Counted from the stretch's first letter, positions 29,439 to 42,480 are shown. The stretch is 64,000 nt of DNA from Vulcaniibacterium tengchongense (GCF_003814555.1 NZ_RKQN01000002.1:124001-188000); one strand, 5' to 3'. The notes: a model not told the origin generated them from the letters alone. Program-made: numbers and translations.

Positions 29439-30185
29439 ATGAAGATCCTCGTCGGCTACAAGCGCGTGGTGGACTTCAATGTCCGCATTCAGGTCAAGCC
29501 GGACGGCTCCGGCGTGGTCACCGACGGCGTCAAGCTGTCGCCGAACCCCTTCGACGAAATCGCCCTGGAAGAGGCCCTGCGCCTGCGCGACAAGGGCCTC
29601 GCGACCGAGGTCGTGGTCGCCACGATCGCCCCGGCCGACGCCCAGGCGCATCTGCGCAACGGCCTGGCGATGGGCGCCAACCGCGCGATCCACGTGGTCA
29701 GCGACGCGCCGATCCAGCCGCTGACCGCCGCCCGCGCCCTGCTCAAGCTGATCGAGAAGGAGCAGCCGGACCTGGTGATCCTCGGCAAGCAGGCGATCGA
29801 CGACGACGCCAACCAGACCGGGCAGATGCTGGCCACCCTGTGGGGCCGGCCGCAGGCGACGTTCGCGTCGAAGCTGGAGATCGAAGGCGGCAAGGCCACC
29901 GTGACCCGCGAGGTCGACGCCGGCCTGGAGACGCTCGAAGTCGAGTTGCCCGCGGTGGTCACCACCGACCTGCGCCTGAACGAACCGCGCTTCATCAAGC
30001 TGCCGGACATCATGAAGGCCAAGAGCAAGCCGCTGGAGACGATCCCGTTCGCCGACCTCGGCGTGGAGAGCGGCGACCTGCTCAAGACCACCCACTACGC
30101 CCCGCCGCCCAAGCGCAGCAAGGGCGTGATGGTGAAGGATGCGGCCGAGCTGGTCGCCGCGCTGAAGGCCAAGGGCCTGCTGTAA
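29439..30185 (+). CDS. etfB: Electron transfer flavoprotein beta subunit
   Basis: AMP-binding beta subunit, 248 residues, opening MKILVGYKRVVDFNVRIQVK. The ETF-beta signature region is VEIEGGKA...VTTDLRLNEPRF, and KARAALLKLIEKEQPDLVILGKQAIDDD is the conserved recognition segment. Works with EtfA, encoded 104 nt downstream, as a soluble carrier between acyl-CoA dehydrogenases and ETF-QO (20.7 kb). In Xanthomonas the etf genes mark one edge of the LPS locus, and the same holds here. Confidence 0.96.
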   Translation: MKILVGYKRVVDFNVRIQVKPDGSGVVTDGVKLSPNPFDEIALEEALRLRDKGLATEVVVATIAPADAQAHLRNGLAMGANRAIHVVSDAPIQPLTAARALLKLIEKEQPDLVILGKQAIDDDANQTGQMLATLWGRPQATFASKLEIEGGKATVTREVDAGLETLEVELPAVVTTDLRLNEPRFIKLPDIMKAKSKPLETIPFADLGVESGDLLKTTHYAPPPKRSKGVMVKDAAELVAALKAKGLL

Positions 30186-30236: not shown

Positions 30237-30289
30237 CGCGATCCGTGCCGAGCACCGCGAGCCCACCCGATGCCAACGGAGATTCCGAG

Positions 30290-31228
30290 ATGTCCAAGGT
30301 CCTGATCGTCGCCGAGCACCTCGACGGCAAGCTCAACGCCTCCACCGCCAAGTGCGTGTCCGCCGCGCAGGCGCTGTCGCCGGAGGCCATCGACATCGTC
30401 GTGCTGGCCGCCGACCCGGGCGCCGTCGCTGCCGAGGCCGCGCAGATCGCCGGCGTCGCCCGCGTACTGGCCGTCGCCCATCCCGGCAACGCCCACGCCA
30501 TCGCCCAGGTGCTGGCGCCGCAGGTCGCCGAGCTCGCCGCCGGCTACAGCCATGTGTTCGGGCCGAGCACCACGTTCGGCAAGGACCTGATGCCCTGCGT
30601 CGCCGCCCTGCTCGGCGTCGCCCAGGTGTCCGACATCATGGCGGTCGAGGGCCCGCACACGTTCAAGCGGCCGATCTATGCGGGCAACGCCATCATCACC
30701 GTCGAGGCCCCGGCCGACCGCACCGTGGTCGCCACCGTGCGTACCGCCTCCTGGCCGGAAGCCGCCAAGGGCGGCAGCGCCGCCGTCGAGGCCGTCTCGG
30801 TCGGGGCCGCCCTGCCCGCCCACACCCGTTTCGTCGGCCTGGCCGCCGGCCAGTCCGACCGCCCCGACCTGCAGTCCGCCCGCCGCGTCGTTTCCGGCGG
30901 CCGCGGCGTCGGCTCGGCGGAGAACTTCAAGATCATCTACGGCCTGGCCGACAAGCTCGGCGCCGCCGTCGGCGCCTCCCGCGCCGCGGTCGACGCCGGC
31001 TACGTCCCCAACGAACTGCAGGTCGGCCAGACCGGCAAGATCATCGCCCCCGAGCTGTACATCGCCATCGGCATCTCCGGCGCCATCCAGCACCTGACCG
31101 GCATCAAGGACGCCGGCACCATCGTCGCGATCAACAAGGACCCGGATGCGCCGATCTTCGAGATCGCGGATATCGGGTTGGTGGGGGATTTGTTCGCGAT
31201 CCTGCCCGAGCTGCAAGGGGCGCTGTAA
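30290..31228 (+). CDS. etfA: Electron transfer flavoprotein alpha subunit
   Basis: FAD-binding alpha subunit, 312 residues. The FAD domain carries the family signature around [20 protein letters not shown] and [37 protein letters not shown], present in full (about residues 240-295). [10 protein letters not shown] near 205 is the conserved hinge. The start at 30290 has GGAG 7 nt upstream. It is the last gene before the sharp composition change at 31.23 kb. Confidence 0.96.
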
Positions 31229-31246
31229 TGCCGACCCTATGGCGGC

Positions 31247-32115
31247 TCACCCCTTCCGCCGGAGGAACCAGACTTCGATATCGGCAGGCAGCACCGCAAA
31301 AAACGGGCGGGCTGCCGATATCGCCACGGTGAGGAAAGCGGCCTTCACTGCCGAGACCTCGCGCGAATAGCGGATGCGCTCGTACAAGCCCGATGCAGAA
31401 ACGGACGGCAGCGTCATCTGCTCTTCGAGCACGAAACCGTGACGACGCGCCAGCGCTCCCATCGATGCGGTATCGAGGTAATGCACGTGCGGCGAGGGAA
31501 ACCCGAATTGCCACAGGCGCTCGAACAGGGCCCGCCATACCCAGGCGTGTCATGATGCGTGAAATCCGATACAGGACGCTACGCCGCGACGGCGCATTGA
31601 CGACCAGCAGCCCTCCCGGCCGCAGCCGTCCGAAACAGGCCTGCAGTGTCGAATTGATATCGGGGATGTGCTCGAGCACGTCGTTGAACGCGATGATGTC
31701 GAACCGCCCACTCTCTCCCAACGCCCCCGGGAAAAAGCCGAGGCGGACCTCATGGCCACGGGCACGGGTAGCCTGCGCGACCGCCTTGTCCGGCTCGATG
31801 CCAAGCGTATCGAAATCCTATTCTGCTGCTTCGAGGAACCAGCCATGGGCGCACCCCACGTCCAACAGCTTGGGCCGCTCCATAGTGAGCGGCGGCGATA
31901 AATCCCTGAGCCGTCGCATCAGCCGCTGGAAATTCGCCTGCGCAGGGCTACTAGCCCACTTTCCCGCGCGGATTCGTCCAAATCGCCCCCTCGGCCTGCT
32001 CGAGGATGTGGGGTTGCAGGTTGCTTCCTTCGTAGCTGCAAGACGTGCACTCGAAGTGCCAAGGTCTCAGGCCGGCATTCAATGTGGCGCCGCAAATCGG
32101 ACAGGGTTGCTTCAA
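31247..32115 (-). pseudogene. Decayed class I SAM-dependent methyltransferase with zinc ribbon
   Basis: Pieces of one methyltransferase lie in order on the minus strand but in different frames. From 32115 (TTG): a zinc ribbon CPICGA...CTSCSYEG. Frame changes near 31960 and 31940 are followed by SAM motif I LLDVGCAHGWFLEAAE, an in-frame TAG at 31818-31820, then FDTLGIEPD, the DVLEHI motif and RPGGLLVVN. Another shift near 31530 is followed by HYLDTASMGALARRHGF to the stop at 31247. At least three frameshifts plus a nonsense codon make sequencing error an unlikely full explanation. Intact relatives are typical of polysaccharide clusters, where they methylate sugars. It lies next to etfA at the island edge. 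Confidence 0.85.
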
Positions 32116-32255
32116 GGTTCCCTCTCTCAAAAGCGTTGAGCGGCGAAGCAAGCCCGGAGGAGTCGTGCTGCCGAGCAGAAGTGTACCGGGGAGAGCCGCT
32201 ACAATTGTGTCCAAGGGCCGATTGCCAGACACGCCGAACTTCACGAGACCGACGA

Positions 32256-33245
32256 ATGCGTGCTTCCATTGGTGTTGTCATCCCGAGCTATAAGGTACAC
32301 GACCATATCCTTCGGGTCCTTGGCTCGATAGGCCCCGAGGTCGAACGGATCTATGTCGTCGACGATTGCTGTCCCGACCGCTGCGGCGAATTCGTCAGGC
32401 AACACTGCAGCGACCCGCGCGTCGTCGTCTTGCGTCATGAGGCAAACCAGGGCGTCGGCGGCGCTGTCATGACCGGCTATCGCGCTGCGATCGACGACGG
32501 CATCCAAATCATCGTCAAGATCGACGGCGACGGCCAAATGGATCCGGCGCTCATTCCGAACTTTGTCTCACCGATCATCCAGGGCGAAGCCGACTATACG
32601 AAAGGCAACCGCTTCTTCGATCTAGAGAACATCCATGCAATGCCGAAGATGCGGCTACTCGGCAATGCCGCCCTGTCGTTCCTGACCAAGATCTCTTCCG
32701 GCTATTGGGACCTTTTCGACCCCACCAACGGTTACACCGCTATCCATGCCGACGTCGCACGGCATCTGCCTTTCCACAAGATTAGCCGCCGCTATTTTTT
32801 TGAGACCGATGTCTTGTTCCGCCTCAACACTCTCAAGGCGGTCGCCGTGGATGTCCCCATGCACGCCAAATATGGAGACGAGGTCAGCAATCTGAAGATC
32901 TCCAAGGTTGCGGGGGAGTTCTTCGTCAAGAACCTGCGCAACACCTTCAAACGGATCTTCTACAACTACTATCTGCGCGATATGTCCCTGGCGTCGCTCG
33001 AACTCCCATTGGGCGTACTGTTGTTCGGCTTCGGAACCCTTTACGGTATCACCGAGTGGATCGCCGGCTTCCGCTCGGGCACACCGGCCTCCAGCGGCAC
33101 CGTCATGCTGGCGGCCATGCCGGTCATCCTCGGCTTTCAACTAATACTGGCCTTCGTCGGGTCGGACATCAGTTCGACGCCCCGGCGCCCAATCCATCCA
33201 AGGTTGCGCAGCTTCGCACTGCATCCTCCGAGCCCATCATCATGA
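32256..33245 (+). CDS. GtrB-like polyprenyl-phosphate glycosyltransferase (GT2)
   Basis: 329 residues. GT2 domain (about 4-235): IGVVIPSYKV, the NQGVGGAVMTGY nucleotide loop and the metal motif D90-G-D92 (KIDGDGQMDP). The dolichol-phosphate-mannose-synthase-like lineage is shown by YTKGNRFFD and DLFDPTNGYTA. Two C-terminal membrane helices (about 250-272 and 281-302) place the active site at the inner membrane. Such enzymes load a sugar onto undecaprenyl phosphate for O-antigen modification. Overlaps the next gene (ATGA) and starts a three-gene module with a small transporter and a DUF2142 protein. Codon third positions are clearly less G/C-rich than in etfA. Confidence 0.88.
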   Translation: MRASIGVVIPSYKVHDHILRVLGSIGPEVERIYVVDDCCPDRCGEFVRQHCSDPRVVVLRHEANQGVGGAVMTGYRAAIDDGIQIIVKIDGDGQMDPALIPNFVSPIIQGEADYTKGNRFFDLENIHAMPKMRLLGNAALSFLTKISSGYWDLFDPTNGYTAIHADVARHLPFHKISRRYFFETDVLFRLNTLKAVAVDVPMHAKYGDEVSNLKISKVAGEFFVKNLRNTFKRIFYNYYLRDMSLASLELPLGVLLFGFGTLYGITEWIAGFRSGTPASSGTVMLAAMPVILGFQLILAFVGSDISSTPRRPIHPRLRSFALHPPSPSS

Positions 33246-33582
33246 CTTACTTCATCGCATTGCTCTGTGTTGTCGGAATCGCATCCGGGCAGATTCTTTT
33301 TAAGCTAAGCGCGGCGTCATTGGCAAAAACCAACAGCTTCCTTGCGCCACAAACCGCAGGTCTGCTAGCGGCGTCGCTAGCGTGTACGGAGTAACGACGA
33401 TCGCCTGCATCTGGGTACTACAGAAGTCCGAGCTCGGTCGCATCTACCCGCTGATGGCGCCAGCCTTCGTTCTCGTGTCGTTAGGTAGCCATCTCTTCTT
33501 CGGTGAGCGGTTCCCTCCCATGTACTTCGTTGCTGTCGCCATGATCATGGCAGGCATAGTCATCACGGTACGAGCCTCATGA
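33242..33582 (+). pseudogene. Small EamA/SMR-like membrane protein, frameshifted
   Basis: Two frames together encode a protein of about 113 residues with four hydrophobic segments. 33242-33394 gives MTYFIALLCVVGIASGQILF and a second helix ending ...SLACTE-stop. The other frame, from about 33382, gives YGVTTIACIWVLQKSELGR, then YPLMAPAFVLVSLGSHLFFGE and a last helix ending at 33582. The join at 33377-33382 needs one extra base. This layout matches ArnE/ArnF-like flippases that turn over lipid-linked sugars. Both ends overlap neighbouring genes (ATGA), so the module was once continuous. It is a true frameshift mutation or a single-base sequence error; no slippery run is present. Confidence 0.75.
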
Positions 33583-35354
33583 GATTGAGTATTCGGGAAT
33601 TGCCGCCCGCCCCGACACACTGGCCTCTATTCTGCGCCATTGTCTTCGTCGTTGGCCTTGTGTTCACGGCAATCGTTCCGCCATTCCAGGCACCGGACGA
33701 ATTCCACCACGTACAGCGCGCTTACCTGCTAAGCCGTGGCCAAGTCATCCTTAAATCCCATGGTAACCAGCCATCGGGCGGTGAAATAGACGCGGCGCTT
33801 GCGCGTTACATGGATACCTTCACACCGATCATGGGAAAGGCAGCGCGAAAGGTATCTAGAGACGAGATTTTGACTGCGAGCGAGGTTCGTTGGTCAGACA
33901 AGACTGTGTTCGCGACGCCCACCGGAACTGCCTACTATTTCCCGGCATTGTATCTTCCGGAGGCCCTTGCCATGTCGTTCGGCAGAGCAACAGGCCTCAC
34001 GGTCGGGCAGTCCTACAAGCTTGCGCGACTCGCCGCATTACTGACTTGCGTAATCTTGCTTTCAATCGCGTTCTACCTTTACCCGCCACCAATCGGTGTA
34101 CTGGCCGTCCTACTGCTCCCGATGAATCTGTTCCTGCTCTCATCGGCAGTCCTTGATGGCTTGGCTACTTCGACCTCAATATTGACGATCTCGGCGTTCC
34201 TTCGTTTAATAGGCTCGATCGAACGAGCGAAGAATCTCGCTTCGTGCTCGCTCGTTATCTCGGTAGCCTTGGTTGCCTCATGCCGGGCAAACATGCTGCC
34301 GATGCTGCTGCTCCCGTTCGTGGCCGCATTCGTACTCCGCGACCGCCGCATGCTGATCGCTGCGCTGATCGTCGCCCTATTTGTGGTCACATGGACGCTC
34401 TTTACGATAAATACCACGGTCTATCCGCCAGGGCCACGCGGGAGCGATAGCAGCGCACGACTCCTATTTTTCCTGAGCGATCCGATTGGTCTAGCAAGAA
34501 TCCTGTGGAATACGTTAGCTGATCCAGCTCTTCGTGCGTTCTACCTGCACTCCTTCATCGGTGTCCTTGGCTGGCTCGACGCACCTCTGCCTGAACTGCT
34601 CTATCCACTCATAGCAGCTCTGCTATTCCTCATTGTGATCGCTACGACGACGCTTCGCTCGTTCTCTTGGCTTCGCGGCGTGATGTTGATCGTCGTCGCC
34701 AGCTCAGCACTGTTGACGTTTCTTGCCTTACTAGTCCAGTGGACAATTGGTCCAGCAACCAAGGTTGAAGGCGTACAGGGGCGGTATTTCGTTATCCCCG
34801 CGATGTTTCTCATCTATGCTTTGACATGTGACCCGACTCCACGTCAGACACTGCGGCGTCGCTGCGCAACGGCGCTGACGTGCCTGCTGGCCGTGATCAG
34901 CATCTACGCAGCCACCTCTACCCTGGTTGCGCGCTACCACACCGCCCCACAACAGGCGTCGGTCGCCTCCGGAGAACTACAGGTAGCCGCACCATTGACA
35001 GCCAAGCAGGCAACGCAGCTCATTTTCGCGCCCCCGATAGCAGCGGAACACAAGATTACGGAGCTTCGTATACGGATTGGCACTTATCGAATGAGCCATC
35101 CCGGGCGTGCGAAGCTCGTGGTTTGGATGGCTGACGGCAAGACGTCCGAGCACCTTTTCGAACTCGCGTCGCTTGAAGATAATGAATACGCGGCTTTTCG
35201 CCTGAAACCTGGCAACTATGTCGGCGGCAGGCTGGAGTCCATCGATGGTGAAGGAGTAAGCGTTTACCAGGTAAGCTTCGGGCCCGCGCTGGTGAGCTGT
35301 CTGACCGCCGTCACTGAAGATGGACGCACTATCACGACGGCAGGGTGCCCCTGA
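33579..35354 (+). CDS. DUF2142 membrane protein, predicted GT-C glycosyltransferase
   Basis: 591 residues. First helix about 17-37, directly followed by the DUF2142 hallmark PPFQAPDEFHH (34-44) with its acidic pair, where GT-C enzymes hold a catalytic Asp. About ten more hydrophobic helices run to residue 440, then a soluble C-terminal domain (about 450-591) rich in beta-strand-like sequence. GT-C proteins move sugars from polyprenyl carriers to glycans on the periplasmic side. It overlaps the small transporter gene (ATGA at 33579), so GT2, transporter and GT-C probably work together. No substrate can be named. A/T-richer codons than the chromosome average. Confidence 0.75.
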   Translation: MRLSIRELPPAPTHWPLFCAIVFVVGLVFTAIVPPFQAPDEFHHVQRAYLLSRGQVILKSHGNQPSGGEIDAALARYMDTFTPIMGKAARKVSRDEILTASEVRWSDKTVFATPTGTAYYFPALYLPEALAMSFGRATGLTVGQSYKLARLAALLTCVILLSIAFYLYPPPIGVLAVLLLPMNLFLLSSAVLDGLATSTSILTISAFLRLIGSIERAKNLASCSLVISVALVASCRANMLPMLLLPFVAAFVLRDRRMLIAALIVALFVVTWTLFTINTTVYPPGPRGSDSSARLLFFLSDPIGLARILWNTLADPALRAFYLHSFIGVLGWLDAPLPELLYPLIAALLFLIVIATTTLRSFSWLRGVMLIVVASSALLTFLALLVQWTIGPATKVEGVQGRYFVIPAMFLIYALTCDPTPRQTLRRRCATALTCLLAVISIYAATSTLVARYHTAPQQASVASGELQVAAPLTAKQATQLIFAPPIAAEHKITELRIRIGTYRMSHPGRAKLVVWMADGKTSEHLFELASLEDNEYAAFRLKPGNYVGGRLESIDGEGVSVYQVSFGPALVSCLTAVTEDGRTITTAGCP

Positions 35355-35372: not shown

Positions 35373-36206
35373 TCAGACGATCGGCGACACCATGGCCCTG
35401 AAAGCCGCTTTGGCCTCTTCGGGAACAAAGACGTGATTCCACGCTTGGGGATCGAAATCGACTTGCTCGCTCTCGATCATGGTTCCATTCGACAACAGCC
35501 GAAGATCCACATATCCGTTTTCTTGCAAGAACCGGTCGAAGTAGCTGTAATCAGCCCTATCGAGGATCTCAACGAAGATCAGCGGCCGATGCCTTCTGAT
35601 GGTACGGATCGCACCACGGAAGACAGGCGCCTCATGCCCTTCGACGTCAATCTTGATGATGGACACCTTCGAAAATAAGTTGGCAACACCGCCCGCCAAC
35701 GCATCAAGCGTTGTCACATTCGTGGTTATCACCTCCGAGTGCTGGGCACGGAACGTCCTTTCTAAGGATGAGCTTGTCTCGACAAGCCCGTGGTCTTGCA
35801 AAGGAATGAATAGGTCTGCTGTCCCTTTGTAATCGCTGAGCGCGACGCGAAAGAGCTTGACTCGCCTGCCGAGCTGATTGATCGTGATGTTCTTCTCGAG
35901 TACAGGAAGCACTTTGGGATCTGGCTCCACCACCCAAACCTGTCCACGGCGCCTAGCAGCGGCGGCCAGGAGCGTGTAGAACCCTGTATTGGCGCCGATA
36001 TCTACGACGATTCCACTTGATGCCGCCACTGCACGCCAGAAGATGTCGGGCATAGGGTGCTCAAATGAGTTCCACCCCATATTTCCGATCTTCACCGCAA
36101 CCTGATCCTTCCCGTTGCAATCAAGCATCCGAATGGACTGGAGGCTTCCGCCAGGTGGAAGCCTCACCTCGACCGACGTCCCTTCCAGCATTGTTGGGTC
36201 GTACAT
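35373..36206 (-). CDS. FkbM family methyltransferase
   Basis: 277 residues. SAM-binding core with motif I VVDIGANTGFYTLLAA (about 67-82), the acidic VEPDPKVLPVLEKN, the FkbM stretch VTTLDALAG, and IIKIDVEGHEAPVFRGA. FkbM enzymes O-methylate sugars or polyketides; in polysaccharide loci they often cap or decorate a chain. Starts 17 nt after the stop of the large glycosyltransferase on the same strand and converges with the DUF2142 gene. Confidence 0.88.
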   Translation of the reverse strand: MYDPTMLEGTSVEVRLPPGGSLQSIRMLDCNGKDQVAVKIGNMGWNSFEHPMPDIFWRAVAASSGIVVDIGANTGFYTLLAAAARRRGQVWVVEPDPKVLPVLEKNITINQLGRRVKLFRVALSDYKGTADLFIPLQDHGLVETSSSLERTFRAQHSEVITTNVTTLDALAGGVANLFSKVSIIKIDVEGHEAPVFRGAIRTIRRHRPLIFVEILDRADYSYFDRFLQENGYVDLRLLSNGTMIESEQVDFDPQAWNHVFVPEEAKAAFRAMVSPIV

Positions 36207-36223: not shown

Positions 36224-39200
36224 CTACATTTGCTTCATGAGACGTTCGTGAAACTCCACCTCGGACATAAAGCGCATGGGGCGGCTGTTGCGCCTCAGCG
36301 CAACTTGGCCGAAAAGATCTCGCAATTCACGTGCTTGTTGCTCGAACAGACAGATGCTTCTAGCATGCGGGTTTCTGAAGCCGTCGAGGCGACTGGGGTC
36401 TTCCAACAGTTTACGGATCTCCCTGGCCAGTGCCGTTCCATCATCATCGAAGGGCACTATCGCTCCGTTCTCGCCTTCCACTATGTCCTCTACGACGCCG
36501 CCGGCATCTGTGGAAATCAGCCAGACATCGCGCACCAGCGCTTCACGTGCCGCAAGGCCGAAGCTTTCCTTACACCGGCTGGGAAATAGCAGCACATCGA
36601 TGGATCCAAAAAACTCATCGATCGTCGCCTGCGTGTAAGCGGGGACGATCTTTGTCTCGCCCGGAACCTGCCACTGCTCCGGATGAATCGATTGCCATCC
36701 CAGATTCAGCGCATTGTCTACTACCCACAATTCATAGTTGGTGTAAGGAAGACTGCGGAATGCCTTTTTCAGCATCTCTCCGCCCTTCATCACCCCCTCG
36801 CCACCAACAAATCCGAAGCGGAGCTTACGTTGACTCGGTGGCGTGCGCTTTAGCGCTGACCCCGGGGACGCAACGCCATTCTTATTGACAACCACCTTAT
36901 TTGAGTCAAAGCCGTTTGCTACGTACAAGTCACGCGAGAACGCACTGGGGGCAAGCAATAAGGCAGCCTTTGATAGCGCTTCGCGCAAGCGCGACGCGCG
37001 ATATGGGAGCATGGACGCGTCTCGTACGCAGCGTGAACATACGTCTAGCGAAATGGAACGCTGATTGCAGTAACGCCCTTCACCCGTCACCATGAATTGC
37101 CTAGCGCACAGCCACCATGCATCGTGCAAAGTGACCACGAAAGGTATCCCTTCCTGCTCACATACGTCGATCAGTTGAACCCCGAGCCCCTGGATGGAAT
37201 GAAGGTGCACGACATCAGGCCGCCACGCACGGAGAACATTCCTGAACTCCTCCACCGGATATGGGTTATCGAAGTCGAGCACTGGATCTGCTTCGGGCGG
37301 CAAGCCCATCGCGAAGACTTCGCAGTGCGAGGATTCGTACCGAATGATTTTGTACGGATGCACCTCGTGGGTTGGCGTAGAGGTAAACATGGCATAGCTG
37401 ACGCCACCGATTTCATTCAACCGCCGTGCGATCTGCTCGGCGACGATTGTGGCCCCGCCGAAGCTACGCGGCTCAAAGAAGATGTTCACTCCAAGCACTC
37501 GCAAGCCGCTCGGCATCAGCGCTTGGTGCGAACTCAAGAAGGGCGCAACGCTCTCGGCTGCGATTGCCTCAGGAGTGAAATGCGCAAGTGCGTGTTGGCG
37601 CGCGGCTTCGCCTACACGCGAACGAAGTGCTCGGTCATCCACCAAGCGTAGGATTTGCTCCTCCCACTCTTCAGGAGTCGTGGCAAGAAAACCATTCTTC
37701 TCATGCTCGACCGTATACAGGTACTCTTCGGTAGGCGAGCAGACCGAGGGGATCCCGAGCACGGCGGATTCCAAGTATTTAATATTCGACTTGGCGTCGT
37801 TAAAGACGGAAGCTTCTAGAGGCGCGATATTAATATCCGCTCTCGCCAAACTCTCCATGTATGTCTCGTAGTCCGTCAGCGGCAACCGCTCGACCTGACC
37901 CTTCACACTGTCGTATTCCGGCGGTATGTTCAAAGTACCAATCACCATCAAGCGGACGTAATAACGCGCTTTAAGAACGCGGAGCACCCCCTCCGCCGCG
38001 ACCTTGAAGTCGGAATCATGGGATCGGGAACCCGAGCCATAAACAATTCGGATGACGCCATCAGTCCGCCTCGGCAATTGCCGAATCCGATCCGCCATGC
38101 GGATGATTTCCGCGTCTAATGCGTTGCGCATAACGTGTGTGTGGCGCACACCCGCTTTACGCATCTCTGCCGCCAACGTTGGCGTAGACGCAATGCACTC
38201 ATCGCAAGCCAACATCATGGCGCGGTACACCGGCACCCCTTTGAGGATACCGTCCCGCGTAGCCTTGTCGAGATCGTTAAGATTCGAATTTGTCTTGTAG
38301 GCCTGTAAATCAAATATAAGGTCGTCAACCTCCCAAACGGTTACCACGCCGAGGCTCTTAGCAATACGGAGGGTCTCCAACTGCTCCGGCCACCCAGGAA
38401 CACGATAGAAGATGGCAATCGTGTGGGTCTGAAGCAGACTCCGCGTCGCAACGACATCCGTCCAATTGACCACGGAGCACTCAATGCCGAGGCTCTGGAT
38501 CAACTGGCGCTTTTGCAGCACGCGGTATCGCAGGCACTGCTGCAGACCAAGTTCCGCGACCAGCAGGACGCGTTGCACAAGCCGCTGAGATGCCGACCCT
38601 GCATCGGGCAGCCCGTTAGGTCGTGTCGTCTTCGCGACACCCGGCAATGCAATGGTGCTGCCGCTGAGGAATAGGCGCACGCGCCTAAACGAATGCCGAA
38701 AGCCGCCGGTACGAGTCTCACGCACGAAGGCCAAGGACAGTCTTATCATGCGCTGCCCAATGCCGTGCACCCGTCGCAGCCAATTTAGACCCGTACGTAG
38801 GGGCAATGTGAGCTGCCATGATCGCGACGCTTTTATCCTGTCCAGTTCCTCTTGGAGCAATTGGGCGCGGCGAGACAACGGATGTAAGGAATGCTTCGAT
38901 TTCGCGAGACTAATCGACAGCGATTCGATGCGTAGCTCGCTTTTCGCGACCTCGGCACTCGCCCGCTCGAACTGTAAGCGGTATTCGTCCCTGGCCCGCG
39001 CCACATCCTGCAATGCTCGCTCATACCCCGCCACAACCGCCATCGCTGGCGCCGCTGCGCGTTGAGAGGCTGCCCAGCTGGCGAGTGCGGTAGCAACATC
39101 TTTTCGAAGCGAATCATCGCGCCCCGCGATCCAACCTTCTTGCGGGAGAGGAAGCGTGAAGACCCAACACATGCCCCATTCCGCAAGCAACTCCTTTGGC

Positions 39201-39499
39201 GGTTCGGGGCCTCCGACAGCGAAGATCACCCCCTGATCGGACAGGCAAAGACCTGCCCGCCCGAACTTGCGAAGCGAATCTGCAGTGGGCACGACGAGCA
39301 AATCCACTCCTGCGGCAGCGACATCGCTTTCAGCGACGCATGCATGACTCCAGTCGTCGAAAGCAGGAAATCGCGCACGAGGATCGACCGCTTCATCGCC
39401 TATTTCGTGCAGGATAGACCGCGGAGCCAGTGCCGTCAGCAACTTGCTCACAAGATCATCAAACAGTGCATCCTTGTTCAGCTCTTCTATCGCAGTCAT
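36224..39499 (-). CDS. Large two-domain glycosyltransferase (GT4 + GT4) with coiled coil
   Basis: 1091 residues. About 1-130 resembles the tail of a class I methyltransferase but lacks a SAM motif. About 160-235 is a predicted coiled coil (repeated Glu/Arg/Leu) ending LDRIKASRSWQLTLPLR, common before GT domains. GT domain 1 (about 310-665) shows VVTVWEVDDLIFDL and IKYLESAVLGIPSV. GT domain 2 (about 675-1070) shows SFGGATIVAEQIARRL, VVTLHDAWWLC and SRCKESFGLAAREALV, with an EX7E-like site. Two retaining transferases in one chain suggest synthesis of a two-sugar step or repeat. Located between fkbM and wzt, so it probably builds the Wzm/Wzt-exported chain. Confidence 0.87.
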   Translation of the reverse strand: MTAIEELNKDALFDDLVSKLLTALAPRSILHEIGDEAVDPRARFPAFDDWSHACVAESDVAAAGVDLLVVPTADSLRKFGRAGLCLSDQGVIFAVGGPEPPKELLAEWGMCWVFTLPLPQEGWIAGRDDSLRKDVATALASWAASQRAAAPAMAVVAGYERALQDVARARDEYRLQFERASAEVAKSELRIESLSISLAKSKHSLHPLSRRAQLLQEELDRIKASRSWQLTLPLRTGLNWLRRVHGIGQRMIRLSLAFVRETRTGGFRHSFRRVRLFLSGSTIALPGVAKTTRPNGLPDAGSASQRLVQRVLLVAELGLQQCLRYRVLQKRQLIQSLGIECSVVNWTDVVATRSLLQTHTIAIFYRVPGWPEQLETLRIAKSLGVVTVWEVDDLIFDLQAYKTNSNLNDLDKATRDGILKGVPVYRAMMLACDECIASTPTLAAEMRKAGVRHTHVMRNALDAEIIRMADRIRQLPRRTDGVIRIVYGSGSRSHDSDFKVAAEGVLRVLKARYYVRLMVIGTLNIPPEYDSVKGQVERLPLTDYETYMESLARADINIAPLEASVFNDAKSNIKYLESAVLGIPSVCSPTEEYLYTVEHEKNGFLATTPEEWEEQILRLVDDRALRSRVGEAARQHALAHFTPEAIAAESVAPFLSSHQALMPSGLRVLGVNIFFEPRSFGGATIVAEQIARRLNEIGGVSYAMFTSTPTHEVHPYKIIRYESSHCEVFAMGLPPEADPVLDFDNPYPVEEFRNVLRAWRPDVVHLHSIQGLGVQLIDVCEQEGIPFVVTLHDAWWLCARQFMVTGEGRYCNQRSISLDVCSRCVRDASMLPYRASRLREALSKAALLLAPSAFSRDLYVANGFDSNKVVVNKNGVASPGSALKRTPPSQRKLRFGFVGGEGVMKGGEMLKKAFRSLPYTNYELWVVDNALNLGWQSIHPEQWQVPGETKIVPAYTQATIDEFFGSIDVLLFPSRCKESFGLAAREALVRDVWLISTDAGGVVEDIVEGENGAIVPFDDDGTALAREIRKLLEDPSRLDGFRNPHARSICLFEQQARELRDLFGQVALRRNSRPMRFMSEVEFHERLMKQM

Positions 39500-39544: not shown

Positions 39545-40297
39545 TCAACCAGCAACGAAGCGTTCGTACGCAGAAACGACTTCCTCCGTCGGCCCAAACA
39601 TGCGAATAGAGCCATTGTCCATCCAGATGACCTTATTGCAAACCTTACGAATCTCATGGTTCGAATGCATGGCAAGAACCACGATCTCCGACCGCTCGTG
39701 GAGGTCGGCCAAGCGACGCTCGGCCTTATGCATGAACGACGCATCGCCTACGCCCATTACCTCGTCCAGCAGCAGAATTTCCGCGTCAACGGCAGTGGAG
39801 ATAGCGAATGCAAGTCGCACCCGCATGCCACTGGAGTAGGTCCGAATCGGCAGATCGAGGTAATCACCCAATTCGCAAAAATCAGCGATCTGCTGCTGTT
39901 TTTCGCGAATCTCCGCTTCGGACATCCCCAAGAGCAAGCCGCGGAGTTTGATGTTCTGCAGACCCGTGGAGTTGTCGTCCATACCAAGGCTGATGTCCAG
40001 CAACGGCACCACCTTGCCTTCGCGATGGATGACGCCGTGAGTCGGCGAGTAGATGCCCGCCATGGTCCGCAGGAGCGTGGACTTGCCCGCACCGTTATGG
40101 CCGATTAGGCCGATGCGGTCTCCGCTCTCGAGGCGAACGGAAATGTCGTTCAGCGCGCGCACCACGACTACACCATCGTTGTCTTCGGCAATGGCATTTC
40201 GCCGTCCCAGACGAACCATCTGCCGCTTGAGCGAGCGCGACTGCACTTCGTAGATGGGCAGGTCCAAGGTGACGCCACTTAGTTCGATGTAGGCCAT
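39545..40297 (-). CDS. wzt: O-antigen ABC transporter ATP-binding protein Wzt (short form)
   Basis: 250 residues. Walker A GHNGAGKST (66-74), polysaccharide-exporter signature TYSSGMRVRLAFA (SSGM 155-158), Walker B EILLLDEV with VGDASF after it, and the H-loop MHSNHE. It ends soon after the ATPase core, so it lacks the C-terminal glycan-binding domain of E. coli O9a Wzt and resembles KpsT or the short O2a-type Wzt. Export is then expected not to need a terminal cap (inference). Starts 7 nt after wzm. Confidence 0.92.
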   Translation of the reverse strand: MAYIELSGVTLDLPIYEVQSRSLKRQMVRLGRRNAIAEDNDGVVVVRALNDISVRLESGDRIGLIGHNGAGKSTLLRTMAGIYSPTHGVIHREGKVVPLLDISLGMDDNSTGLQNIKLRGLLLGMSEAEIREKQQQIADFCELGDYLDLPIRTYSSGMRVRLAFAISTAVDAEILLLDEVMGVGDASFMHKAERRLADLHERSEIVVLAMHSNHEIRKVCNKVIWMDNGSIRMFGPTEEVVSAYERFVAG

Positions 40298-40304
40298 GCG
40301 CTGC

Positions 40305-41087
40305 TTACACCCAGTACGCGATGCGCTTCAGATAGCGATTGGTAAAAGCCAAGGCGAACAACCAGCCGACGACGGCCAGCCCTACGGCAACGCACCAAGC
40401 GGTCAGGCTCGGCACTTCGCCGAGCAGTGGCTTCCGAACCACATCAAGCAGATATGCCAGCGGATTGAGATCGACGATAAAGGAGAAGCGTGTCAGCGCT
40501 TCGGGTTTGTACATAATCGGAGTGACGTAGAACGCGACCTGCATGAAAGCAGCCACGATTTGCGGAAGATCGCGAAAACGCGCCGAAAGCAGTCCCGCCA
40601 GCATCGCAATCCATGTCCCGTTTAATGCCAACACGAAAAGCGCTGGGACGAAAAGCGGCAGTGTGTCCCACCGCTTGACACCGAAGATCGCCAGCAGCGC
40701 TATCACGATGACGAAGTTGTGCGCAAGGATGATCAGGTTGCGCCACGTTACTTGCAGGACATAGATCAGCTTGGGCGTCGAAACCTGGCGTATATAGGCG
40801 GCGTTGTTGATGTACGCTTGACTACCTTCGGTAACGGTACTGGCGAACATACTCCAAGAGACCAGGCTGGCCGCGAGGTACGGCAAGTAGTCGCTGAGGT
40901 TCTGCCCGAACAGCGTGCCATAGACGACGCCAATGGAAGTGATGATCACCCCCATGCTGATGGTCAACCAGAAAGGCCCGACACGCGAGCGCGCATAGCG
41001 TTGTCGGATTTCCAGCCAGCCCAGCAAAGTCCAAAGCCGCCAAGAAGCAATGCTGTGCTTCAGGTCGGCTGCGGCTAGAGTCAACAT
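40305..41087 (-). CDS. wzm: O-antigen ABC transporter permease Wzm
   Basis: 260 residues, ABC-2 type membrane protein with about six helices. The amphipathic start WRLWTLLGWLEIRQRYARSRVGPFWLTIS is the family hallmark, and NPLAYLLDVVRKPLLGE is the conserved re-entrant region. With Wzt it moves undecaprenyl-linked polysaccharide across the inner membrane. It is 69 nt downstream of metB on the same strand, with a marked drop in G/C on crossing into it. Confidence 0.92.
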   Translation of the reverse strand: MLTLAAADLKHSIASWRLWTLLGWLEIRQRYARSRVGPFWLTISMGVIITSIGVVYGTLFGQNLSDYLPYLAASLVSWSMFASTVTEGSQAYINNAAYIRQVSTPKLIYVLQVTWRNLIILAHNFVIVIALLAIFGVKRWDTLPLFVPALFVLALNGTWIAMLAGLLSARFRDLPQIVAAFMQVAFYVTPIMYKPEALTRFSFIVDLNPLAYLLDVVRKPLLGEVPSLTAWCVAVGLAVVGWLFALAFTNRYLKRIAYWV

Positions 41088-41156: not shown

Positions 41157-42341
41157 TCAGGCTGCGTTCAGGGCTCCGTCGATGTCGGCGCGTAGATCCA
41201 CCATGTTCTCCACGCCTACGCTGAGGCGCACGAGATTGTCTGCGATACCCAATGCGAGACGTCGATCCGCCGGCACCGACGCATGCGTCATGATCGCCGG
41301 GTGATTAATCAGGCTTTCGACGCCACCGAGCGACTCGGCGATCGCGAACAGCTCGCAACGTTCCATCATCCGGCGCGCTGCGGCTTCGCCGCCCTTGAGG
41401 TGGATACTGATCATCCCGCCGAACCCGTCCATCTGCCGCTTCGCCAGCTCGTGCTGCGGATGCGACTTCAGCCCGGGGTAGATCACTCGTTCGATCGCGG
41501 GATGGGTTTCCAGCCATTCGGCCAGGGCCAGCGCGTTGTCGCAATGCGCCTTCATGCGCAGGTGCAGGGTCTTCAGGCCGCGCAGGGCGAGGAAGCTGTC
41601 GAAGGGGCCCTGCACGCCGCCGACGGCGTTCTGCAGGAACGCCATCTTCTCGGCCAGCTCGGCGTCGTCGCCGACCACCACCATGCCGCCGACCATGTCG
41701 GAGTGGCCGTTGAGGTACTTGGTCGCCGAGTGCATGACGAGGTGCGCGCCCAGCTCCAACGGGCGCTGCACGATCGGCGAGCAGAAGGTGTTGTCGACGA
41801 CGACGATCAGGCCGTGCCGGCGCGCGATGCCGGCGATCCGTTCGATGTCGACCAGCTTGAGCAGCGGGTTGGTCGGCGTCTCGACCCAGACCATGCGCGT
41901 CTCGGGCCGGATCGCGGCCTCGAAGGCGGCCGCGTCGCTGAGATCGACCCAGCTGAAATCCAGGCCCGCGGAGCGGCGGCGGACGCGCTCGAACAGACGG
42001 TAGGTGCCGCCGTAGACGTCGTCCATCGCGACCACGTGGCTGCCGCTGTCGAGCAGCTCCAGGATCGTCGAGGTCGCCGCCATGCCGGAGGCGAACGCGA
42101 AGCCGCGCGTGCCGCCCTCGAGCGCGGCGACGCAGCGCTCGTAGGCGAAGCGGGTCGGATTATGGCTGCGCGAATACTCGAAGCCCTGGTGCACGCCCGG
42201 GCTGGACTGGGCGTAGGTCGAGGTCGCGTAGATCGGGGTCATGACCGCGCCGGTGCTGGGGTCCGGCGTCTGCCCGGCATGGATCGCGAGCGTGCCCAGG
42301 CCGGGCTTGCGCGCCCCGCCCTCGGGAGGTGTGTCAGTCAT
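41157..42341 (-). CDS. metB: Cystathionine gamma-synthase / gamma-lyase (PLP)
   Basis: 394-residue PLP enzyme of the Cys/Met metabolism family. The PLP lysine is K208 in MHSATKYLNGHSDM; other signatures are FAFASGMAATST, VETPTNPLLKLVDI and GGVESLINHPAIMTHAS. Start ATG 42341. The family includes MetB, MetC and gamma-lyases; with the cystathionine beta-synthase gene just upstream it may work in reverse transsulfuration as a gamma-lyase. The name follows the Xanthomonas LPS-locus flanking gene. It marks the right edge of the polysaccharide island. Confidence 0.92.
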   Translation of the reverse strand: MTDTPPEGGARKPGLGTLAIHAGQTPDPSTGAVMTPIYATSTYAQSSPGVHQGFEYSRSHNPTRFAYERCVAALEGGTRGFAFASGMAATSTILELLDSGSHVVAMDDVYGGTYRLFERVRRRSAGLDFSWVDLSDAAAFEAAIRPETRMVWVETPTNPLLKLVDIERIAGIARRHGLIVVVDNTFCSPIVQRPLELGAHLVMHSATKYLNGHSDMVGGMVVVGDDAELAEKMAFLQNAVGGVQGPFDSFLALRGLKTLHLRMKAHCDNALALAEWLETHPAIERVIYPGLKSHPQHELAKRQMDGFGGMISIHLKGGEAAARRMMERCELFAIAESLGGVESLINHPAIMTHASVPADRRLALGIADNLVRLSVGVENMVDLRADIDGALNAA

Positions 42342-42480
42342 CGAATCCTTCCAATTCCGCAGATTTGGGGCAGCCGGCGATTCTAGCACCGCCCCTGCCG
42401 GCCGCTTCGCCGGGCTGCCCTGCGTTTCAGCCGCGATTGCGGCCGTCCGCCTGCGTTCCCTGTTCAGCAAAACACCCGGC

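Follow-up and report, generated by a model that had tools for sequence, protein, structure and literature searches.

A GT2, small-flippase and DUF2142 gene set in the O-antigen locus of Vulcaniibacterium tengchongense is a probable glycan-decorating cassette

A 64,000-nucleotide stretch of the 3.58-Mb genome of Vulcaniibacterium tengchongense (G000:C2:124001-188000; hereafter the window, from whose first letter positions are counted) carries, at 32256-35354, three consecutive genes for a GT2 glycosyltransferase (P0001), a small membrane protein of the SMR type and a membrane protein of the DUF2142 family (P0002). On one side of the triplet lies etfAB and on the other wzm/wzt-metB. We consider it probable that this locus encodes, or encoded until recently, a three-component cassette of the Gtr/Arn type decorating an ABC-exported O-antigen, with DUF2142 as the terminal transferase. 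An earlier note, made from the DNA alone, had described the GT2 and DUF2142 genes correctly, both being whole open reading frames (ORFs) that match PF00535 and PF09913, respectively; the ATGA overlaps it reported are likewise present at both junctions, at 33242-33245 (GT2/SMR) and 33579-33582 (SMR/DUF2142).

The GT2 protein possesses an N-terminal GT-A domain followed by a C-terminal pair of transmembrane (TM) helices. In the PDB it matches the Pyrococcus DPMS (5mlz, E 6e-12), and among PHROGs it matches PHROG 841, annotated as 'GtrB-like O-antigen conversion' (E 1e-11). Together with PF00535, these matches are consistent with a polyprenyl-phosphate sugar synthase of the GT-A fold carrying C-terminal TM helices. 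Orthologues of this GT2 subfamily, at 50-72% identity, are present in 73 of the 299 family genomes searched.

The DUF2142 protein consists of a polytopic membrane domain and a C-terminal β-domain (about residues 480-591), the latter presumed to be periplasmic. In an alignment of 15 DUF2142 proteins, D40, E41 and H44 (the PDExxH of the APDEFHH motif to which the earlier note drew attention) are invariant, as are W332-L333-D334 (GWLD) and Q400-G401-R402-Y403 (QGRY). An AlphaFold2 model of P0002, based on 14 sequences (predicted local distance difference test, pLDDT, 72.8; predicted template-modelling score, pTM, 0.71), places TM1 at residues 15-32 and a helix at 41-52, with the conserved acidic pair in the first loop after TM1. 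A second model was produced for a phage DUF2142 protein (pLDDT 84.2, pTM 0.88); the two have alignment members in common and are not fully independent. Foldseek comparison of the P0002 model with 350,542 PDB chains returned GT-C enzymes at ranks 1-6 (ALG12, EmbB, STT3, two entries of ArnT, and EmbA), while ranks 1-9 for the phage model were occupied by ALG12, ArnT, AftA, DPY19, AftA, PglB, ALG9, PglB and EmbA, and unrelated folds ranked only below the GT-C enzymes. The template-modelling scores of these matches are below 0.5, indicating that DUF2142 is only distantly related to known GT-C enzymes, and the modelled membrane domain looks GT-C-like. The models thus support the GT-C-like transferase envisaged in the earlier note; its statement that the role of DUF2142 is undescribed holds only in part, since predictions exist for lactococcal members (PMC12599335, PMC9746298).

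Sequence-based searches found no DUF2142 relatives among PDB sequences (phmmer, or hmmsearch with the family profile) and no model matching DUF2142 in PHROGs or NCBIfam, and a fold search of BFVD gave nothing at E <= 0.001. In Foldseek, the C-terminal β-domain of P0002 exhibits a weak, non-significant likeness to carbohydrate-binding modules. The accessory domain appears to differ between subfamilies: that of the window protein is C-terminal, whereas many other DUF2142 proteins (L019-L028) have instead an extra domain of about 200 aa at the N-terminus.

The middle gene, read in the earlier note as an ORF for a four-helix transporter, is in fact frameshifted. The frame beginning at 33242 reads MTYFIALLCVVGIASGQILFKLSAASLAKTNSFLAPQTAGLLAASLACTE and ends at a stop at 33392-33394, and the EamA/ArnE-like remainder (VYGVTTIACIWVLQK...) continues in the -1 frame up to a TGA at 33580-33582, which overlaps the ATG of DUF2142. 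An SMR profile built from homologues in related genomes matches both halves (Table 1) and gives 52 bits for the read-through product, whose alignment to the relatives shows no gap at the break. Hence, this is one gene from which one base is missing in this sequence. The note's assignment of an ArnE/SMR-like protein to the flippase position is supported, although the gene as sequenced is broken; both halves match the SMR family. The GQxLxK motif common to the family's SMR proteins is located in the N-terminal half. Against the NCBIfam ArnE model, the C-terminal half scores 32.4 bits (E 8e-8) and the intact homologue of genome G124 scores 54.9 bits, both below the equivalog cut-off of 92 bits, while in a six-protein test the relatives-built profile matches E. 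coli ArnE (E 1.8e-18). Acidic residues are absent from the aligned TM1 (VVGIASGQILFKLSA), and the GQ motif is shared with ArnE; lipid-type SMRs lack the central TM1 glutamate and often carry Asn instead (PMC9574504). Judged from its sequence, the small carrier is an ArnE-like, lipid-type SMR, not ArnE itself. Programmed frameshifting was set aside, no slippery heptamer being apparent at the break by eye; it is further disfavoured in that the relatives examined are single-frame and the neighbouring methyltransferase gene is also broken.

This lesion leads to the question as to whether the cassette is decaying and already non-functional in this strain, its GT2 and DUF2142 genes remaining intact only because decay began recently, which we regard as possible but somewhat doubtful. 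In addition to the frameshift, the methyltransferase gene between etfA and GT2 is a pseudogene, its pieces lying in three frames with an internal stop when compared to an intact copy (L018 13157-14062). Furthermore, etfAB, Wzm, Wzt, the large glycosyltransferase (GT) and metB are intact as ORFs, so that generally poor sequence is unlikely and a real lesion is favoured. On the other hand, neither the 329 codons of GT2 nor the 591 of DUF2142 contain a lesion, the missing base of the SMR gene may be a sequencing error, and the genome holds a second small flippase gene, a GtrA. In gtr systems GtrA and GtrB are reported to be interchangeable, and gtr cassettes to tolerate deletion of gtrB (PMC3688519). 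The window cassette contains no GtrA (PF04138); the sole GtrA of the genome is on contig C4 (G000:C4:124242-124586) and would be a candidate replacement for the frameshifted flippase. The cassette in this strain is possibly disabled, or possibly rescued in trans. The GtrA on C4 adjoins a gene for a 752-aa polytopic protein (L096 2866-5599), between glmU-like and atp-operon-like genes. GtrA matches of similar score are present elsewhere in most relatives, and this GtrA may belong to a conserved second system.

The arrangement recurs in other genomes, which shows that it is more than chance. Neither outcome that the earlier note had named as refuting its reading, a fold other than GT-C or a lack of co-occurrence elsewhere, was observed. 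Thirteen of the 299 family genomes possess a real DUF2142 (C-terminal-only matches in G211, G248 and G278 were not counted), and the neighbourhood set comprised 14 genomes, with G000 and Stenotrophomonas maltophilia included. In 12 of the 14, a small flippase gene lies no further than about 7 kb from DUF2142: it is of the SMR/ArnE type in six (G000, where it is broken, G124, G035, G109, G070 and G267) and a GtrA in the other six (G086, G112, G130, G133, G011 and S. maltophilia). GtrA forms part of the cassette itself in the relatives' loci L019/L020, L023 and L025 and in phage locus L089. The substitution of an SMR for GtrA suggested in the earlier note is supported for the window, where the gene is broken, but the seat is not fixed, as relatives use GtrA equally often. 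The P0001-type GT2 is found in 12 of 13 DUF2142 genomes as against 61 of the 286 others (Fisher p 2e-7, a value that overstates independence because the genomes with the locus are related). Locus orders vary (DUF2142-GT2-GtrA, SMR-DUF2142 and GT2-SMR-DUF2142), so the association does not represent one inherited operon copied unchanged. Of 29 GT2 loci whose surroundings were inspected to a distance of 1.5 kb, nine lie next to an SMR and five next to a GtrA, and several adjoin other large membrane proteins.

Between genomes, the median identity is 58% for GT2 and 23% for DUF2142, with GT2 the more alike in 78 of 78 pairs. A conserved loader beside a variable transferase is the pattern reported in Salmonella, where GtrA and GtrB are conserved and GtrC is divergent (PMC3688519). 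In the same locus of S. maltophilia SJTL3 (L002), the GT2 gene (72% identity) is followed directly by DUF2142 (47% over the membrane domain) with no SMR between them, and a GtrA gene is present elsewhere in the same metB-etfA interval. In SJTL3 the DUF2142 frame (L002 6001-7794) is broken between its two domains, the membrane domain running to 7386 and the β-domain from 7408. Outside the family, GT2 and DUF2142 genes are also neighbours in other proteobacteria and on a plasmid of Ruegeria conchae.

The genes around the triplet (Table 1) are arranged in the order etfB-etfA, methyltransferase pseudogene, GT2-SMR-DUF2142, FkbM methyltransferase, two-domain GT, Wzt, Wzm, metB and cysK-CBS. The metB-etfA interval is the established and highly variable lipopolysaccharide (LPS) locus of xanthomonads, including Stenotrophomonas (PMC2238763). 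The 1091-aa two-domain GT is presumed to be an O-antigen backbone enzyme.

Table 1. Genes and gene remnants in and around the triplet (window positions; HMM, hidden Markov model)
Feature	Position	Strand	Match or remark
etfB	29439..30185	+	PF01012; 85-90% to neighbours' EtfB; LPS-locus flank
etfA	30245..31228	+	PF00766/PF01012; LPS-locus flank
Degraded class I methyltransferase (pseudogene)	31131..32244	-	tblastn with the L018 13157-14062 methyltransferase
GT2, predicted polyprenyl-phosphate sugar synthase, GtrB/ArnC/DPMS type, 329 aa	32256..33245	+	PF00535, 69 bits
Flippase gene, N-terminal half, 50 aa then stop	33242..33394	+	SMR HMM 12 bits, E 2.5e-5
Flippase gene, C-terminal half, -1 frame	33379..33582	+	EamA E 4e-4; NCBIfam ArnE; SMR HMM 40 bits
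DUF2142 protein, 591 aa	33579..35354	+	PF09913, 168.4 bits (cut-off 30.1), profile positions 1-389 of 395
FkbM-family methyltransferase	35373..36206	-	PF05050; member of LPS locus
1091-aa GT, two GT4-type domains	36224..39499	-	PF00534, two stretches; 56% to an S. maltophilia 1113-aa protein
Wzt, ABC exporter ATPase	39545..40297	-	PF00005; 81% to S. maltophilia
Wzm, ABC exporter permease	40305..41087	-	PF01061; 75% to S. maltophilia
metB	41157..42470	-	PF01053; other LPS-locus flank

The presence of Wzm and Wzt implies that the O-antigen backbone is completed in the cytoplasm and exported by the ABC transporter. Decoration as a separate step in the periplasm is therefore plausible, and the cassette need have no role of the Wzx/Wzy type. 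This bears on the proposal that DUF2142 here polymerises the O-antigen or transfers chains en bloc, as opposed to transferring single sugars. Such roles have been assigned, by prediction, to the lactococcal WpsI and WpsJ (PMC12599335, PMC9746298), yet a Wzm/Wzt pathway needs neither Wzx nor Wzy. The window DUF2142 is, moreover, paired with a GT2 of the monosaccharide-loading type and a small flippase, and a relative is found in a phage gtr cassette. We consider a polymerase or chain transferase quite improbable at this locus.

That phage gtr cassette came to light in a scan of viral contigs, which identified 12 loci with DUF2142 proteins. In L089 (1443-4542), a GtrB-like GT2 (1443-2384) is followed by GtrA (2388-2783; PF04138, 72 bits) and DUF2142 (to 4542; 132 bits), adjoining tail and baseplate genes; the three genes look like a seroconversion cassette in which DUF2142 would be the specific transferase. 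A close copy of the L089 DUF2142 is located on a contig with a portal protein gene (L090). In L085 and L093 (4953-7585 in each), DUF2142 is directly followed by an acyltransferase-3 gene, and in L085 a tail fibre-like gene lies close by. Acyltransferase-3 is another typical O-antigen modification gene. The remaining phage loci have no recognised gtr partner, and of ten phage records searched whole only L089 contained GtrA; the lone phage DUF2142 genes are inferred to borrow the loader and flippase of the host. A tblastn search of phage GenBank records with P0002 gave no match.

The acceptor of the sugar cannot be read from sequence, and GT-C enzymes of the ArnT and PMT types act on lipid A and on proteins. 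The set may, therefore, glycosylate another envelope target (lipid A or core, capsule, or protein), although this seems unlikely given that the cassette lies inside the O-antigen locus in several genera, that DUF2142 is strongly variable, and that tailed-phage contigs carry the gene, in one case within a gtr cassette. Placement, variability and phage carriage together suggest a serotype-like surface glycan.

The putative O-antigen cassette has several counterparts among known systems. The gtrA-gtrB-gtrC cassettes of Salmonella, Shigella and their phages (PMC3688519) similarly combine a charging GT2, a small flippase and a polytopic serotype-specific GT, with a conserved loader, a divergent transferase and phage carriage. 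The window differs in having an SMR/ArnE-type flippase in place of GtrA (relatives use either) and DUF2142 in the seat of GtrC, and in lying in the chromosomal metB-etfA locus of an ABC-exported O-antigen. The ArnC-ArnE/F-ArnT system, which adds L-Ara4N to lipid A, also comprises a GT2 loader, an SMR flippase and a GT-C transferase, and ArnE is the best named match of the small protein. In contrast to Arn, the window has a single SMR subunit that falls short of the curated ArnE cut-off, and sequence similarity between DUF2142 and ArnT is undetectable beyond a short motif; no arnA/B/D-type sugar genes were recognised between etfA and metB.

A parallel in layout is GT136 (ORF12) of Citrobacter youngae O1/O2, a proven transferase of a three-component system that acts on an ABC-exported O-antigen, with ORF14 as its SMR flippase (PMC11127046). 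GT136 has a proposed catalytic Asp31 after TM1, donor contacts through R349/Y350 and a C-terminal β-domain (PMC11127046); the P0002 model, compared with its published description only, has the same layout (Asp after TM1, RY motif and C-terminal β-domain). The two systems have in common an ABC-exported O-antigen, an ArnE/EmrE-like small flippase gene (frameshifted in the window) and a GT-C enzyme, predicted in the case of the window, but the C. youngae loader is a UbiA-type phosphoribosyltransferase with a phosphatase domain, not a GT2. The load-flip-transfer logic put forward in the earlier note is supported, whereas an SMR in a three-component system is not new, given ArnE/F and ORF14 (PMC11127046). 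The lactococcal WpsI, WpsJ and YcaA also belong to DUF2142 and are predicted membrane glycosyltransferases, polymerases or transferases of surface polysaccharide loci (PMC12599335, PMC9746298), with a neighbouring bactoprenol glycosyltransferase reported (PMC12599335). They differ in their assigned role in polymerisation or chain transfer, in their Gram-positive hosts and in that a triplet with a small flippase has not been described.

By analogy with these systems, the GT2 would charge undecaprenyl phosphate, the presumed donor lipid, with one sugar on the cytoplasmic side; the ArnE-like SMR (elsewhere GtrA) would bring the lipid-sugar to the outer leaflet; and DUF2142, as a GT-C enzyme, would transfer the sugar to the exported O-antigen, the presumed acceptor, in the periplasm. 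We infer residue roles in DUF2142 from the same analogy: D40 after TM1 may serve as the general base and QGRY may hold the donor, while the C-terminal β-domain may contact the glycan.

A number of observations weigh against this decorating cassette. The cassette as sequenced is incomplete, its flippase gene being frameshifted; DUF2142 has no flippase nearby in two of the 14 genomes (G065 and G063, although the GT2 of G063 itself has an SMR neighbour); and the relatedness of the genomes tempers the co-occurrence statistic. The fold matches score low, and most E-values of the search with the second model are weak. Alignment of the DUF2142 profile with single-sequence ArnT by hhalign gave no match, and the likeness of the first loop to ArnT is not above chance, since 872 of 1000 shuffles score as high, and the shared motif was therefore not used as proof. 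Lastly, the lactococcal members of the family have been interpreted as polymerases or as enzymes of en bloc transfer, not as single-sugar transferases (PMC12599335).

Beyond the window, it seems about evenly balanced whether DUF2142 is, in general, an uncharacterised GT-C family of serotype-determining transferases in modular O-antigen cassettes of chromosomes and phages, in which one loader GT2 works with either SMR or GtrA and lone phage members borrow the host loader and flippase. The kind of system is known from Gtr, Arn and Citrobacter GT136; what is new lies in the detail, namely the assignment of DUF2142 to the terminal step, its presence within a phage gtr cassette and the exchange of SMR and GtrA beside one GT2 subfamily. 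A membrane family known by a DUF number is thereby given a testable role, periplasmic transfer of O-antigen side chains, and a tie to phage seroconversion. The swap of SMR/ArnE-like and GtrA proteins beside the same loader lends support to the view, as yet unproven, that both act as flippases of polyprenyl-phosphate-sugars. Since O-antigen decoration affects recognition by phages and antibodies, such cassettes are useful as markers of serotype and phage host range.

Related gene sets were also observed. In a glycan cluster on a Lawsonia intracellularis plasmid (L132 3141-11341), DUF2142 is accompanied by GT2 genes and by small membrane proteins of the DUF2304 family, which are possibly another flippase type. 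Genome G063 possesses, beside etfA, a GT2-GtrA-GT-C-like set (326, 144 and 496 aa; L098 5279-8198) that is distinct from the P0001/DUF2142 set; such cassettes seem to collect at the etfA end of the LPS locus.

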